Origin: a virus
Virus record (IMG/VR): IMGVR_UViG_3300044646_001815
Location: 1-28,660 of that record
Length of the DNA: 28,660 nt
Reading direction: 5' to 3' (one strand)
Part shown: positions 6,854 through 28,660 of the stretch, in pieces
Layout of the letters: every line of letters starts with the position of its first letter
Position numbering within the stretch: position 1 is the first letter of the stretch
Made by a program: the position numbers and the translations under genes
The notes under the pieces: generated by a model
Told to the model about the DNA's origin: nothing
Database searches by the model: none
Seen by the model: only the letters and a program-made list of their open reading frames with translations

Positions 6854-7147
6854 TCACAGCAGCCAGCCCCAGCGCTCTTCCAGCCGACGCGCCTGCTCAC
6901 GCATCCGCTCCTCACACGCCGTGATGATATTCGCACAGGCCTGCATACAGCTCCGTGCCGTCGCCAGCTCCAGCGCCACCGTCATCCGGTCCAGCTCCGT
7001 CAAAGAGCCGTGGCCCAGCAGCGCCTCCATCAGCGTCACCTGGTCAGCCCATTGCGCCATCTTCGCCCGTGCCGCCTCCATCTCATGCAGCGGATGATCC
7101 CGCACCGCCGAAAGGGCAGGGGCCTTATCTAAAGATGAAGCACTCAT
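6854..7147 (-). CDS. Small helical phage protein, unknown function
   Basis: The product has 97 aa and starts at ATG 7147, with GGAGG five bases upstream; the stop of the previous gene overlaps it as ATGA. The sequence is almost entirely predicted helix with heptad-like Leu/Met spacing (about residues 20-95) and is rich in Glu, Arg and Ala, so a coiled coil or helical bundle is likely. Two Cys (about 67 and 71) and one near 80 are not arranged as a zinc site. No family is recognised. It is translationally coupled to neighbours on both sides, which suggests shared expression early after the sigma-like gene. Confidence 0.65.
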   Translation of the reverse strand: MSASSLDKAPALSAVRDHPLHEMEAARAKMAQWADQVTLMEALLGHGSLTELDRMTVALELATARSCMQACANIITACEERMREQARRLEERWGWLL

Positions 7148-7443
7148 GCCGCCCTCCTTCTCTTCGAGGTGGCCGAGGCAAACGCCTCCGCCGCCAGCAC
7201 CGCTGGCCGCGCATACAGCGCATGCCAGCCCCGCGTGCCCTTCATCGGCTCTAGGCCCCACTCCCGGCACTTCCGCGCCAGATTAAACAGTCGATCTGCA
7301 GGCTCATCACCCGCCACCTGCCACCGTGTGCACAGTTGCACCGCCGTCAGCGGTGCCGTCGCATCCGCCTCGCGCTTCAGGTCACGCACCTCCCCCAGCA
7401 GCACATCCAGCACACCCCGCAGCTCATGCATACCCCGGCTCAT
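7144..7443 (-). CDS. Small protein with possible winged-helix DNA-binding segment
   Basis: The product has 99 aa and starts at ATG 7443 with AAAGGAGG upstream and an ATGA overlap with the previous stop. An N-terminal helix (1-25) is followed by LTAVQLCTRWQV (32-43), which could be a recognition helix unit like those of excisionase or AlpA-type proteins. A central part with EWGLEPMKGTRGWHALY could form a wing, and the end is basic (SKRRRAA). This makes a small DNA-binding regulator plausible, but the match is weak. It is embedded in a run of small coupled genes between the sigma-like factor and the methyltransferase. Confidence 0.6.
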   Translation of the reverse strand: MSRGMHELRGVLDVLLGEVRDLKREADATAPLTAVQLCTRWQVAGDEPADRLFNLARKCREWGLEPMKGTRGWHALYARPAVLAAEAFASATSKRRRAA

Positions 7444-7658
7444 ACTGTGCCCTCCTTTCCCATCTCAGCTTCACGCCGCCAGATCTCCAGTTGCCCTTCC
7501 ACGCGACCCGCCAGCACACTGGAAACCACCAGCAGCGCCTGCGCCTCCGCATCATCCATCGAAAGACTCTGCACATCGCGCAGCGTCGCATCCATCCGCA
7601 TCATCAGCACCACGCCCTTCGGCCCAGTGATCATCACCGTGTATTCAGTGCCACTCAT
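7440..7658 (-). CDS. Small phage protein, unknown function
   Basis: The product has 72 aa and starts at ATG 7658 with AAGGGGG upstream; the ORF could be read from 7736 but that would overlap the previous gene fully and has no ribosome site. The N-terminal half looks like a short beta sheet (TEYTVMITGPKGVVLMMRM), the C-terminal half a charged helix. No family is recognised. ATGA overlaps couple it to both neighbours. Confidence 0.6.
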   Translation of the reverse strand: MSGTEYTVMITGPKGVVLMMRMDATLRDVQSLSMDDAEAQALLVVSSVLAGRVEGQLEIWRREAEMGKEGTV

Positions 7659-7813
7659 GCGGCACCCCCTTCCACCAAAAGGTAAGCACCCCACAGCGCC
7701 AGCAGCAGGCACGTCATCGAGCTCAGCCGATCCCACAGCGTCTCATCCGTCACCATCCCTACCAGCGCATTCGTCGCATGGATTGCTACTAAAGTAGTCA
7801 CATAAAAAGTCAT
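7655..7813 (-). CDS. Small two-helix membrane protein
   Basis: The product has 52 aa, starts at ATG 7813, and has AAAGGAGG about 11 nt upstream. Two hydrophobic segments are visible, residues about 5-22 and 31-48, joined by a short polar loop with DETLWDR, which fits a membrane hairpin with both ends on the same side. It is coupled by ATGA overlaps to the membrane protein gene upstream and the small gene downstream. Function is unknown. Superinfection exclusion is possible for such a protein in this position, but nothing in the sequence proves it. Confidence 0.6.
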   Translation of the reverse strand: MTFYVTTLVAIHATNALVGMVTDETLWDRLSSMTCLLLALWGAYLLVEGGAA

Positions 7814-19760: not shown

Positions 19761-20918
19761 TTATTGGTAGCTGAGGTTGAATTTTTTCACGGCTTTCTCG
19801 ATTTCGGAGAGGTAAGCATTACCTTTGTCCATGCTGCGTGCTTGCTGCTGCAGCACGGCGCTTTGTTTGACGAGCTCCGCGATCATGCGTGAGGCTCCAT
19901 TGTTGAGAGGATTGATGGACGTGCCGCGACCGTAGGAGGTATCCACGTCTCCTTTCATGCCACCAAAGGCCACGCTTTGCAGGGCGGAGGCTTGAGCGGA
20001 GAGCTTTCGGGATTGCTCATTGAGCTGAGATTGAATGACATCGGAGACGGGGCCTAGCACGTCCGGCATGATGCGGCGGAAACTGCCGATGACGTTTTCC
20101 AAGAGGTTACCTTGAGGGGTGCTGGGTGGGGCGTATTGGCGCTGGAGATTGCTGACGAGGCTTTGAGTGGTCGGGGCGCTAAGGCCGAGGTTTTGCACTT
20201 TGGCGATTTCTTGAGCCAGCTTGAGCTGGCGCTCCATTTCATCGGCCTCTTCTTTGCGCCCTGCGGCGCGTAGTTCAGCCAAGGTGGCCTGCTGTTGACT
20301 GAGCTGCACCAGGCGTGTCTCGATGGAGGCGATGGCCTGCTCTGCATCGGCACGGGTTTTGGCGCGTTGATCAAGGAGATCCTGCGCGGAAATATCCGGT
20401 GACATCGTGGCGAGCAAATCACTGGCGGCTTCCATCATCGACATGCCGCCATTGATGCGGCGATTGGTGTCTTCGATGACTTTGCTGAAGCCTTTCCATT
20501 CATCGACGAGCTGATCTGGGCTGGAAACCACCAAGAGGCTCATGAGTGTGGATTCGAATTGAGCGCTGGCTTTTTGTGCGGCTTCGAATGCTTCAATGGC
20601 TTGAGATCCCATCTGATAGGCAGCACCGCCGATGGCGATGAATCCGCCTGCAATGGCACCACCCGCGCCAAAAGCGGAAAGCATCTGCGAGCCTTGCTGA
20701 GCCATGACGGTGGTCCACTTCGTGCCCATCTGGAGCTGGACGACGACGTCTTGCACCTGCATGGCCATCTGCCCCATGGCGCGGTTTCCACTGCCAGCAG
20801 CTTTTTGCATGGCTCCTGCCATTTGACCGCTGGCGGCATTCATGCGGGCGGGTAGGCCATCCACGGCTTTTTGAAAGGCGGTGGCATCTGCTCCAATTTC
20901 GACGACGACGGCGGACAT
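19761..20918 (-). CDS. Tape measure protein (short)
   Basis: This 385-aa protein sets tail length. The N-terminus (VVVEIGADATAFQKAVDG) is the usual start of phage tape measures, followed by a hydrophobic, glycine-rich stretch (about 85-115, AFGAGGAIAGGFIAIGGAAY) that can form membrane-inserting helices, and long coiled-coil-prone helices rich in Gln, Ala and Leu (about 150-240 and 290-330). It is short for siphoviruses, which predicts a short tail of roughly 50-60 nm. It lies right after the frameshift chaperone, the standard position. Confidence 0.8.
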   Translation of the reverse strand: MSAVVVEIGADATAFQKAVDGLPARMNAASGQMAGAMQKAAGSGNRAMGQMAMQVQDVVVQLQMGTKWTTVMAQQGSQMLSAFGAGGAIAGGFIAIGGAAYQMGSQAIEAFEAAQKASAQFESTLMSLLVVSSPDQLVDEWKGFSKVIEDTNRRINGGMSMMEAASDLLATMSPDISAQDLLDQRAKTRADAEQAIASIETRLVQLSQQQATLAELRAAGRKEEADEMERQLKLAQEIAKVQNLGLSAPTTQSLVSNLQRQYAPPSTPQGNLLENVIGSFRRIMPDVLGPVSDVIQSQLNEQSRKLSAQASALQSVAFGGMKGDVDTSYGRGTSINPLNNGASRMIAELVKQSAVLQQQARSMDKGNAYLSEIEKAVKKFNLSYQ

Positions 20919-20936: not shown

Positions 20937-21182
20937 TCAAAGCTGCGCGCTGGCCCAGGGGTCATCGAAATCAACGGCCGGCAGCGGTGCATCGGTGGCG
21001 ATGGCTTGCCAGGCGGAGGCTTTGTAGGTGCGCAGGCCTTGACGGCGGAGCTCGGCATGGATGAAGCCTAGAAGCTGCCACAGGGGCCAATGCCAGCCGA
21101 CTTGACGGGGATCATGCCCACAGCGGACGGCCTGCCAGATGAGGGCGATAGCGACGTCTGGCTCGTCGCTATCGTCTAGGCC
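20937..21182 (-). CDS. Tail assembly chaperone, frameshift extension (gpT-like)
   Basis: This 81-residue frame lies between the chaperone gene and the tape measure and has no usable start codon: no ATG, GTG or TTG follows the upstream in-frame stop until well inside it. It has a sensible composition (IWQAVRCGHDP, WHWPLWQLLGFIHAELRR) and ends with a TGA 18 nt before the tape measure start. It is reached by a -1 slip at CCCTTTG (21182-21188). The fusion would have about 189 aa. In lambda the G and GT proteins made this way chaperone tape measure folding in tail assembly. Confidence 0.8.
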   Translation of the reverse strand, partial: GLDDSDEPDVAIALIWQAVRCGHDPRQVGWHWPLWQLLGFIHAELRRQGLRTYKASAWQAIATDAPLPAVDFDDPWASAQL

Positions 21183-21505
21183 AAAGGGGAGGTGGCTCCG
21201 GCGGGAGGTTCGGCTTCAACGAAAGCGGCTTCCATGCGCTCGATGTCCCGCGTCATGCTTTTGAAGATGCTAGGGTAGAGGCTGAGATCGAGGCTGTATG
21301 CATGCCGTTTGGCAGCGGTGAGGATCTCCTCATCACTGGCGTTTTCGAGAGCGGTGATCTCTGCGGTGTGGAGGTAATGCCACAAGGTGGCCGCGTGCAG
21401 CTGCTGGGCCTGATCCGCAGCGGGGGCGGTGATCATGGGGCAGTTCAAACGCAGGAGCAGGGCATAGCTGGCAGCGGAGAGAGGGCGCATAGTAGTCAGT
21501 GACAT
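21176..21505 (-). CDS. Tail assembly chaperone (gpG-like), frameshift zero frame
   Basis: The product has 109 aa and starts at ATG 21505, overlapping the metalloprotease stop by 10 nt. It is helical and acidic (about residues 20-100). The last codons are CCT TTG GCC TAG, and the preceding C completes the slippery heptamer C CCT TTG. Most ribosomes would end here; a fraction would shift to the -1 frame and add the 81-residue extension. It precedes the tape measure as in other tailed phages. Confidence 0.8.
   Translation of the reverse strand: MSLTTMRPLSAASYALLLRLNCPMITAPAADQAQQLHAATLWHYLHTAEITALENASDEEILTAAKRHAYSLDLSLYPSIFKSMTRDIERMEAAFVEAEPPAGATSPLA
21182..21188 (-). promoter_or_regulatory. 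-1 frameshift slippery heptamer CCCTTTG
   Basis: In the chaperone frame the bases read C CCT TTG, matching X XXY YYZ. A -1 slip re-pairs the tRNAs on CCC and TTT and continues with GGC in the extension frame. The zero-frame stop TAG is two codons on, so normal termination is close by. No strong downstream hairpin was established by eye. Confidence 0.8.
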
Positions 21506-21966
21506 GAGGCGATGTGTTGTAGGAAAAAGCTGCGGTAAGCGGTTTTTTCGGCGGTGGTGAGTTTTCCGGTGCCACCGATTTCGGGGTGCATGACATCGGC
21601 TGGATCGGCACTGTGAGGCAGGGCGAACACGTGACCCAATTCATGCACGAGTGCGGTGAAGGTGTCTTCTCCGCGACCGAGTAGGCGATCCCAGAAACGA
21701 TCTTTTCGCCAGCGGAGGGTGGATTGCAGGCGGATCTGCCAATGATCGGTGTGCATGCGTTGGCATTCGGCGACGCGGGTAGGATGCTTTGCGGTGCGAA
21801 CATCGGGCGACCACATGACGCGGATGTTTCCCCATCCGCCGCTGATCTGTGGCTGCAGGATGATGAGGTCTTTCATGACGTCATTCCAAACGGCTACGGC
21901 ACGCTGTGTGAAACGTGCGAGATCCGGCGGGGTAGAGTAAGTCAAGACTTCTGGCATGACTGGCAT
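21496..21966 (-). CDS. Zincin metalloprotease (matrixin-like)
   Basis: The product has 156 aa; ATG 21966 or ATG 21957 may start it. The zinc-binding signature HELGHVFALPH (residues 108-118) gives three His ligands and catalytic Glu109, and Met126 in DPADVMHP provides the metzincin Met-turn. The N-terminal part (about 15-100) suits the small protease fold. The absence of a signal peptide or propeptide suggests the enzyme acts in the virion or cytoplasm. It lies within the tail genes just before the chaperone, so it may process a virion protein or degrade host surface proteins during infection. Such enzymes are uncommon here. Confidence 0.8.
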   Translation of the reverse strand: MPVMPEVLTYSTPPDLARFTQRAVAVWNDVMKDLIILQPQISGGWGNIRVMWSPDVRTAKHPTRVAECQRMHTDHWQIRLQSTLRWRKDRFWDRLLGRGEDTFTALVHELGHVFALPHSADPADVMHPEIGGTGKLTTAEKTAYRSFFLQHIASCH

Positions 21967-25660: not shown

Positions 25661-26275
25661 CTAGGCAGCAGCTGTCAAAGGCGCTGCCTCCGGTGCTAAG
25701 GTATGACGGGCATCGTGGCGGTAGGTGTGAAGCACGCGCGGGATGTGATGATCCTGGCTGACGTGGAGCCTGGCTTGTTTCACCCAGGCAGCGTCTTCGC
25801 CGTAATTGCAATCCAAGAACTGGCAATGCGCGATGCGCTCACGCCGCCAGGCACAAACGTGCCAAGGGCCACGAGTGAGCTTTTGATGGCTTGGATCATC
25901 GAGGATGAGGTTTTCATCACGCGCGCCGAGCTGGAAGATGACCTTGAAGGCTTTCCCATTGTAAAGGGCATCTTGCTCGAAGGTGATGACGTGGGCGTGT
26001 GGAGCCTCACGGATGGCCTGCAAGAGGCTAGGCACGTAATCGGCAGCGACGGTATCATCGTCGTCCACGAAGGCGATGTATTGGCCACGGGCGCTGTTGA
26101 GCAAGGCTTGACGCTTCAGGCCGACACTGCGGTGCCTGTTGTCATAGAGCACGAGGTGCTCGACATCGGCATGATGGGTGATCTGCGCGGCGATGTGCTG
26201 CACGAGCTCTTGGCATTGGGTCACACGTTCCCAGCAGGCGGGTGTGAGGATGGATAGAAGAGGAGGTGGTTTCAT
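25661..26275 (-). CDS. Glycosyltransferase family 2 (GT-A fold)
   Basis: The product has 204 aa and starts at ATG 26275, in an ATGA overlap. The GT-A nucleotide-binding strand LLSILTPAC begins it. The metal-binding motif is FVDDDD (Asp71-74), and the catalytic base motif GED lies near residues 159-161 (NYGEDAAW). It is shorter than most GT2 enzymes but has the full core. It could modify host surface sugars or phage DNA/virion proteins and so alter adsorption. It ends the accessory operon, followed by a strong terminator. Confidence 0.8.
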   Translation of the reverse strand: MKPPPLLSILTPACWERVTQCQELVQHIAAQITHHADVEHLVLYDNRHRSVGLKRQALLNSARGQYIAFVDDDDTVAADYVPSLLQAIREAPHAHVITFEQDALYNGKAFKVIFQLGARDENLILDDPSHQKLTRGPWHVCAWRRERIAHCQFLDCNYGEDAAWVKQARLHVSQDHHIPRVLHTYRHDARHTLAPEAAPLTAAA

Positions 26276-26315
26276 TTGGAGGTGGTGGTTTTTTGTGGGT
26301 GAGTTTGATTGTTCG
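26268..26315. repeat. Gene-junction repeat J1, copy A
   Basis: This 48-bp stretch matches 26629-26676 with two differences. It contains the last codons of one gene (NQTHPQKTTTSK) and the ATG start of the next. The same junction appears before the GT fragment, so both genes have been inserted into the same kind of boundary. Confidence 0.8.
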
Positions 26316-26508
26316 CCGCACGTTTTGCAGCGCGGCGTTGACGTTTGGCTTCCGCAGCAGCCATGGCTTCCTGATCGGCTTGTGTTTTTTCCCGATTTGG
26401 GTCATGGCGTGCGCGATATGCACTATGACTTCCTTTACCGAAAGCTATTGCCAATGACCTCGGCAGCGGAGGCAGTAACATAGCTGCAAGTTTTAGCCGC
26501 ATATTCAT
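26272..26508 (-). CDS. Small basic protein with signal-like N-terminus
   Basis: The product has 78 aa and starts at ATG 26508. The N-terminus (LKLAAMLLPPLPRSLAIAFG) is hydrophobic with a basic start and could be a signal or anchor. The rest is Lys/Arg/Ala-rich and helical, with a Gln/Glu-rich coiled-coil-like middle and a C-terminal NQTHPQKTTTSK tail shared with another gene in the cassette. The upstream 51 bp can be read in frame, but lie inside the repeat. Function is unknown. Confidence 0.55.
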   Translation of the reverse strand: MNMRLKLAAMLLPPLPRSLAIAFGKGSHSAYRARHDPNREKTQADQEAMAAAEAKRQRRAAKRAANNQTHPQKTTTSK

Positions 26509-26603
26509 GGCAGGAAGGGTTGGAGTTTGGTGAGTTCGACGTTGTGCCGATCTGCCCACGCCCGTTTCGAGGGCAAACAGAGTTCAGCGATGGGGGCGAT
26601 GTG
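26505..26603. repeat. 99-bp exact direct repeat J2, copy A
   Basis: The 99 bases are identical to the last 99 bases of the window (28562-28660). The preceding bases differ. The segment holds the C-terminal part of a 43-aa ORF and its overlap with the next ATG. Confidence 0.9.
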
Positions 26604-28111: not shown

Positions 28112-28251
28112 GTTGTTTGTCGTTTGGTTTCTACTTCGGCAGTCTGGGGTGCCGTGCCCTGAACCATCGGCTGATGCCAACGGCTCGAAAATCGTCTGTC
28201 ATGTTTGCGGGCGTCTATCGCTCGCCGTCGGCATAGCCGGAGCGTTTTCAT
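28045..28251 (-). CDS. Basic 68-aa ORF, doubtful
   Basis: ATG 28251 overlaps the stop of the previous gene as ATGA, and the ORF is Arg/Lys-rich (LCRRRAIDARKHDRR). It overlaps the next gene's start by 67 nt in another frame, and composition is biased, so it may be a non-coding frame in the spacer. Included at low confidence because of the coupled start. Confidence 0.3.
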   Translation of the reverse strand: MKTLRLCRRRAIDARKHDRRFSSRWHQPMVQGTAPQTAEVETKRQTTWKKHCITQMCPAQKSTCLTSR

Positions 28252-28565
28252 GGCAGGATTCCTTTCGTTTTGAGGAATGCGATGCAGCGTTGGCGAGCGG
28301 TGGCGGAAAAACAATCTCTAGGCATAAATGTCATCTCCCAGATGTGTGCGCGATACGCGTCGTGTTCTGCGTCCGTCAGCGTCTTCTCAAACTCCGCGCA
28401 GGCGTTGCGGTCGTTGAGGTAGTCGGGGAGTCTTTCTGCGACATAGCAAAACTCATCATACGGAGATTCCCATCTTTGCGGGATCATGGACTTTCCGTTG
28501 TCCATAAATAGCTCTTTGTAGCCAACGCTTTCCGCAATCGCGATTCTCATTTGTTCGTCGGTCAT
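28248..28565 (-). CDS. Small phage accessory protein
   Basis: The product has 105 aa and starts at ATG 28565 within the J2 repeat. The sequence (MRIAIAESVGYKELF, LPDYLNDRNACAEFEKTL and TARQRCIAFLKTKGILP) resembles a recurrent family of small phage proteins of unknown function with a DYLNDLNA signature. It is acidic and helical. It begins an accessory gene cassette right at the window end. Confidence 0.65.
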   Translation of the reverse strand: MTDEQMRIAIAESVGYKELFMDNGKSMIPQRWESPYDEFCYVAERLPDYLNDRNACAEFEKTLTDAEHDAYRAHIWEMTFMPRDCFSATARQRCIAFLKTKGILP

Positions 28566-28660
28566 GGCAGGAAGGGTTGGAGTTTGGTGAGTTCGACGTT
28601 GTGCCGATCTGCCCACGCCCGTTTCGAGGGCAAACAGAGTTCAGCGATGGGGGCGATGTG
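28562..28660 (-). CDS. Partial second copy of the glycosyltransferase-like fragment
   Basis: The final 32 codons and stop of a copy of the 43-aa ORF at 26505-26636 run off the window end. They are identical over all 99 bases. The ATG of the next gene overlaps the stop as ATGA. This copy may continue outside the window as a complete gene or be a repeat artefact of assembly. Confidence 0.6.
   Translation of the reverse strand, partial: HIAPIAELCLPSKRAWADRHNVELTKLQPFLP

Follow-up and report, generated by a model that had tools for sequence, protein, structure and literature searches.

The question raised by this locus is whether an 83-codon reading frame that lies directly before a phage tape-measure gene, and that has no standard start codon of its own, could be reached by ribosomes slipping back one base from the short ORF that it overlaps. 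The DNA analyzed here (the window) is a 28,660-base virus record from an uncultured phage, with its tail genes encoded on the minus strand. Besides the tail genes, the window has integrase, cytosine methylase, primase-like and peptidase genes. The record is probably incomplete, for the window proteins scanned included none recognized as a terminase, portal or major capsid protein. Two minus-strand ORFs, at 26272-26559 and 28248-28616, start with the same stretch, MGRSAQRRTHQTPTLPAM, which indicates a repeated segment at that end of the window.

Layout of the two frames

The features of the locus are as follows.

21176 to 21505, minus strand: 0-frame ORF of 109 codons, putative G-like tail assembly chaperone
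21182 to 21188, minus strand: putative slippery heptamer C_CCT_TTG, in the X_XXY_YYZ phase that −1 slippage needs
21176 to 21178, minus strand: 0-frame stop TAG, within the spacer region ahead of the stem described below
20937 to 21188, minus strand: −1 frame extension, putative T-like domain, 83 codons from CCC TTT to the stop TGA at 20939-20937
19761 to 20918, minus strand: tail length tape measure protein, 385 aa (PHROG 1538, E 4.6e-11; Pfam TMP_2, E 1.4e-4, below the Pfam cut-off)

The 0-frame ORF (21505-21176) ends in ACC TCC CCT TTG GCC TAG, such that its stop is the second codon after TTG, as the preliminary description of this DNA had stated, and lies 3 nt past the heptamer. The −1 frame is open between TGA at 21218-21216 and TGA at 20939-20937, and the extension is 83 codons long when counted from CCC, or 81 codons when the two slippery codons are left out. 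The preliminary description had reported the 81-codon frame as lacking a usable start, and indeed neither ATG, GTG nor TTG occurs anywhere in the 83-codon frame of the window. The coordinates also bear out its spacing of 18 nt between the stop of the extension and the ATG (20918) of the tape-measure gene. For the 0-frame ORF, the ATG at 21490-21488 (MRPLS...) is the more likely start because relatives begin there. A short ORF overlapped by a −1 frame without a standard start codon of its own is the arrangement by which a lambda-type G/GT locus is recognized, and it is the arrangement found here.

Between the tail genes and the putative chaperone, 21496-21966 (minus strand) encodes a 156-aa matrixin-like zinc metallopeptidase (Pfam PF00413, E 1.7e-8) with an HELGHVFALPH motif. 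No copy of the metallopeptidase was found by tblastn in the related loci searched, including that of contig L002, in which the adjacent DNA is approximately 88% identical.

The bare anatomy of such a site was defined as an in-phase heptamer at most 20 codons from a stop, together with a −1 frame that stays open over 50 codons or more. That anatomy occurs three times on the minus strand of the window, twice besides the site under study, and random strands of similar composition carry approximately 2.0 look-alikes each. Bare anatomy by itself is not significant, being within chance, and the case therefore rests on conservation and structure. We conclude from sequence comparison that the significance of the locus comes from conservation in relatives, a third-position bias in the −1 frame and a covarying hairpin.

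Elsewhere on the minus strand, an in-phase GGGAAAG at 7461 lies near the end of a 98-aa frame (7440-7736), and the −1 frame there runs into the frame of the ORF at 7144-7443. That heptamer is probably a chance occurrence because the downstream ORF has its own ATG.

Conservation of the heptamer and the extension

Scans of viral contigs yielded 12 related contigs: L002 (also L004 and L011), L003 (also L010 and L015), L005, L006, L007, L008, L009 and L017 to L021. Approximately 10 of the 12 are distinct, as L005 and L006 are alike, and L017 and L018 are alike, across the stretch; the four contigs L017 to L020 were first retrieved with the 0-frame half alone as the query. CCCTTTG is identical, in the same phase and accompanied by a homologous −1 extension in all 12 contigs, and the tape-measure gene lies directly downstream in every one. 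Identity to the window falls to approximately 30% in the 0-frame half and ranges from 44 to 90% in the extension. The position of the 0-frame stop varies, being one codon past the heptamer in most contigs and 16 to 18 codons later in L003, L008 and L009, while the position of the extension stays constant. The preliminary description had proposed an alignment of related phages as a check and had named two outcomes that would count against a frameshift: an extension that is not conserved, or one with its own start codon and ribosome site in relatives. In the alignment, both the heptamer and the extension frame were conserved in 12 of 12 contigs, and the reading withstood that check.

The contigs also delimit where a shift could occur. 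In L008, a TGA closes the −1 frame 12 nt before the heptamer; taken with the 0-frame stop of the window, and assuming one site for all, this places the shift within approximately 22 nt. We conclude that the heptamer is the evident common element inside that interval, as judged from the aligned contigs.

A covarying hairpin downstream of the heptamer

A further feature, absent from the preliminary description, was found downstream of the heptamer.

21146 to 21174, minus strand: candidate stimulatory hairpin, indicated by synonymous shuffles and covariation

The hairpin has a perfect 11-bp stem, CGATAGCGACG (21174-21164) paired with CGTCGCTATCG (21156-21146), closed by a 7-nt loop (21163-21157) and separated from the heptamer by a 7-nt spacer (21181-21175). 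When codons were redrawn synonymously such that the −1 protein was preserved, a stem this good appeared near the site in 0.02% of redraws (P about 2e-4). The folding energy of the hairpin alone is unremarkable (z −1.96; 304 of 5722 windows of the genome fold equally well), so the case for the hairpin rests on its position, the synonymous shuffles and covariation.

A stem at the same 7-nt spacer is present in the window and in nine relatives. The arms are CGACTCCG/CGGAGTCG in L005 to L007 and L021, CGACTCG/CGAGTCG in L017, L018 and L020, and CGACTCC/GGAGTCG in L019; the stem is also present in L002. The 3′ arm lies 2 nt farther along in L017 to L020 than in the group of the window, and the stem alignment therefore needs a 2-nt loop gap. 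In that alignment (A8, seven distinct sequences), all 56 of 56 cells were paired and 4 of the 8 pairs had changed on both sides. The covariation score was 0.548 versus 0.218 ± 0.057 for shuffled alignments, and slid controls scored at most 0.095. No comparable hairpin of note was detected in L008 or L009, and L003 has a weak one. A covarying stem 4 to 10 nt past the heptamer is a mark of bacterial −1 PRF, and the window has one at 7 nt.

Candidate stimulators beyond the hairpin

The same −1 frameshift might depend on a stimulator that exceeds a simple hairpin, namely, an H-type pseudoknot, an internal Shine-Dalgarno (SD)-like GGAG or both; we consider this possible but rather unlikely. One sequence is relevant in the window.

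21196 to 21199, minus strand: possible upstream stimulator, unproven, absent in L017 to L020

The loop sequence GCCAGA is complementary to a UCUGGC located a few nucleotides past the stem in the window, L002, L005 to L007 and L021. The loop pairing is absent in L017 to L020, however, both sequences are also accounted for by conserved codons (GAG CCA GAC and ATC TGG CA), and in predicted folds UCUGGC can pair with the spacer instead. As for the SD-like sequence, GGAG or GAGG lies 8 nt upstream of the heptamer in the group of the window, and GGAG lies 6 nt upstream in L008 and L009, which lack the hairpin, but neither motif is present in L017 to L020 and the motif may merely reflect coding. Both the pseudoknot and the internal SD were set aside as clade-wide parts of the signal, being not conserved in all subclades and confounded by coding.

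The distribution of these elements raises a tentative picture that we regard as speculative. One uncommon heptamer (CCCUUUG, with Leu-UUG in the A site) may have been fixed in the clade while the stimulators were swapped between subclades, giving stem plus SD-like, stem only, SD-like only and neither clearly, possibly with tuning to the host tRNA-Leu.

Selection on the extension and how it could be reached

Pairwise comparisons of the extension gave 58, 33 and 161 differences at −1 codon positions 1, 2 and 3, respectively, sums that include overlapping pairs and so are not counts of independent events. The third-position excess shows that the extension is read in the −1 frame and kept by selection. 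We conclude from the pattern of differences that the extension is under protein-level selection.

One way in which the extension could be translated is as a separate gene, either initiated independently or coupled translationally to the 0-frame ORF, for example, by re-initiation at a nonstandard start near TAG. The TAG of the window does overlap the extension frame, nonstandard starts such as ATC and CTG occur inside the extension, and GTG or TTG is present in the extension of some relatives. In the window, however, the extension lacks all three standard starts (ATG, GTG and TTG), and the first such codon in relatives falls at codons 12 to 28, downstream of an invariant PF..DDSD.P. The most conserved stretch of the extension, PFG.DDSD.P, begins at the heptamer and precedes every ATG, GTG or TTG in the frame, which makes independent initiation unlikely. 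Moreover, re-initiation would need a 0-frame stop at that position, and L003, L008 and L009 lack one. We consider two separate genes highly improbable. A frame break introduced by sequencing or assembly, or a single gene in decay, could mimic recoding where there is none. Both can be dismissed, for although an indel near a C/T run might occur in a lone metagenomic contig, the identical frame change occurs at the same heptamer in 12 contigs from different datasets whose N-terminal halves have diverged to approximately 30% identity, both frames are under purifying selection and no relative with one continuous frame was seen among the 12.

Identity of the encoded proteins

Sequence searches of both halves of the putative chaperone against Pfam, PHROGs and the PDB yielded no credible match, named chaperone families included, and scans of genome contigs and phage records for a pointer to the host returned nothing convincing. 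The 0-frame half was predicted with good confidence to be all-helical (pLDDT 85); a fold search of the PDB gave no notable match (best Z, 3.1), and the best viral match, in BFVD, was only an uncharacterized phage protein. The model of the extension (pLDDT 69) was too uncertain for a fold search. Because no family or fold match names the protein, "tail assembly chaperone" is a name drawn from its location, its size and the frameshift layout. Akkermansia phage Moulinsart was considered and rejected as a host pointer, as the match was weak (E 0.05) and no separate gene is annotated between the matching gene and the tape measure.

The tape measure of L002 (L002:4573-5910) resembles that of the window (19761-20918) at its start and end, with 81% identity over the last 115 residues, and has an unrelated middle, which suggests exchange of the central part.

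The heptamer in other phages and in E. coli

A wider set of 80 contigs with related tape measures was inspected upstream by an automated procedure, and the resulting list (L033 to L104) includes some chance or wrong-frame entries, such as L035 and L037 at 1899. In this list the layout of the window recurs upstream of the tape measure, with a heptamer in phase close to where a short ORF ends and with a −1 extension; the heptamers are AAAAAAC, AAATTTT, TTTTTTG or GGGAAAC. Those phages differ from the window in the heptamer, and their GGGAAAC-type chaperone proteins gave no detectable alignment with the protein of the window; they are thus positional counterparts rather than demonstrated homologues. 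Within the contigs inspected, CCCTTTG was confined to the clade of the window. The clade is one of phages without close described relatives that uses an uncommon putative slip sequence.

In the literature searched, a scope that excluded most subscription papers, no phage slippery site with the sequence CCCUUUG (CCCTTTG) was found. All four bases occur at each heptamer position in a survey of phage tail-chaperone sites (PMC10885494), so CCCTTTG is uncommon yet inside the known range. Of 64 heptamers assayed next to the IS3 pseudoknot in E. coli, 61 proved prone to frameshifting, and the three failures named do not include C_CC.U_UU.G (Sharma et al. 2014, PMC4066793). By implication, C_CCU_UUG would be frameshift-prone in E. 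coli, and the earlier suggestion that the locus is informative about frameshifting in the host of this phage survives only in weakened form for that reason. In the same assays, UUN codons were on average more shift-prone than CCN and GGN codons, and heterogeneous codons such as UUG shifted less than homogeneous ones, so that UUG in the A site would be expected to slip less than UUU or UUC (PMC4066793). The hairpin of the window fits the spacing and first-pair rules of that study and the spacing of GGAG fits its SD rule, although E. coli may not be the host of this phage (PMC4066793).

Discussion

The locus very probably encodes a tail assembly chaperone of the lambda G/GT type expressed by programmed −1 ribosomal frameshifting, the reading first proposed for it and now supported by the heptamer and extension in 12 of 12 contigs, the third-position bias and the covarying stem. 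The slippery heptamer of lambda is GGGAAAG. Like lambda gpG/gpGT (PMC5009743), the locus has a small ORF and an overlapping startless −1 ORF with X_XXY_YYZ at the junction, lies directly before the tape measure and is conserved in relatives. The window differs from lambda in its heptamer, CCCTTTG, in a strong covarying hairpin 7 nt downstream and in having a putative chaperone that no named family was found to match by sequence or fold. Points against the frameshift reading are the lack of a comparable hairpin in L008 and L009, its weakness in L003, the missing match to a named chaperone family and the heterogeneous A-site codon UUG.

Under −1 frameshifting, most ribosomes would read ...CCT TTG GCC and stop at TAG, yielding a short G-like protein. 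A minority would pause as they reach the hairpin, 7 nt past the heptamer, while CCU is occupied by Pro-tRNA and UUG by Leu-tRNA; both tRNAs would then re-pair one base back, from CCU to CCC and from UUG to UUU, and translation of the rest of the 83-codon −1 frame would produce a G-T fusion. If the products act as those of lambda do, the tape measure protein would be bound by the G part and the tail tube protein by the T part, and neither product would remain in the finished tail. The frequency of frameshifting is expected to be low to moderate, because UUN codons are shift-prone but the heterogeneous UUG shifts less (PMC4066793). The gpG/gpGT product ratio measured in lambda is approximately 30:1 (review, PMC5009743), and shifting at such a frequency would be fitting if the chaperone pair has a lambda-like ratio.

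The arrangement is a known one, and the locus adds a further well-supported example with an uncommon heptamer, a covarying hairpin and a gene that has no match in the phage records searched. Our understanding of the frameshift mechanism is unchanged by it. The 83-codon T-like domain would escape standard gene callers, such that the frameshift reading amounts to a correction of the annotation, and the locus is a natural test case for slippage on CCCUUUG. If the heptamer is indeed fixed in the clade while its stimulators are swapped, then these phages would form a natural series showing how the parts of a −1 signal can change while the product ratio is kept.
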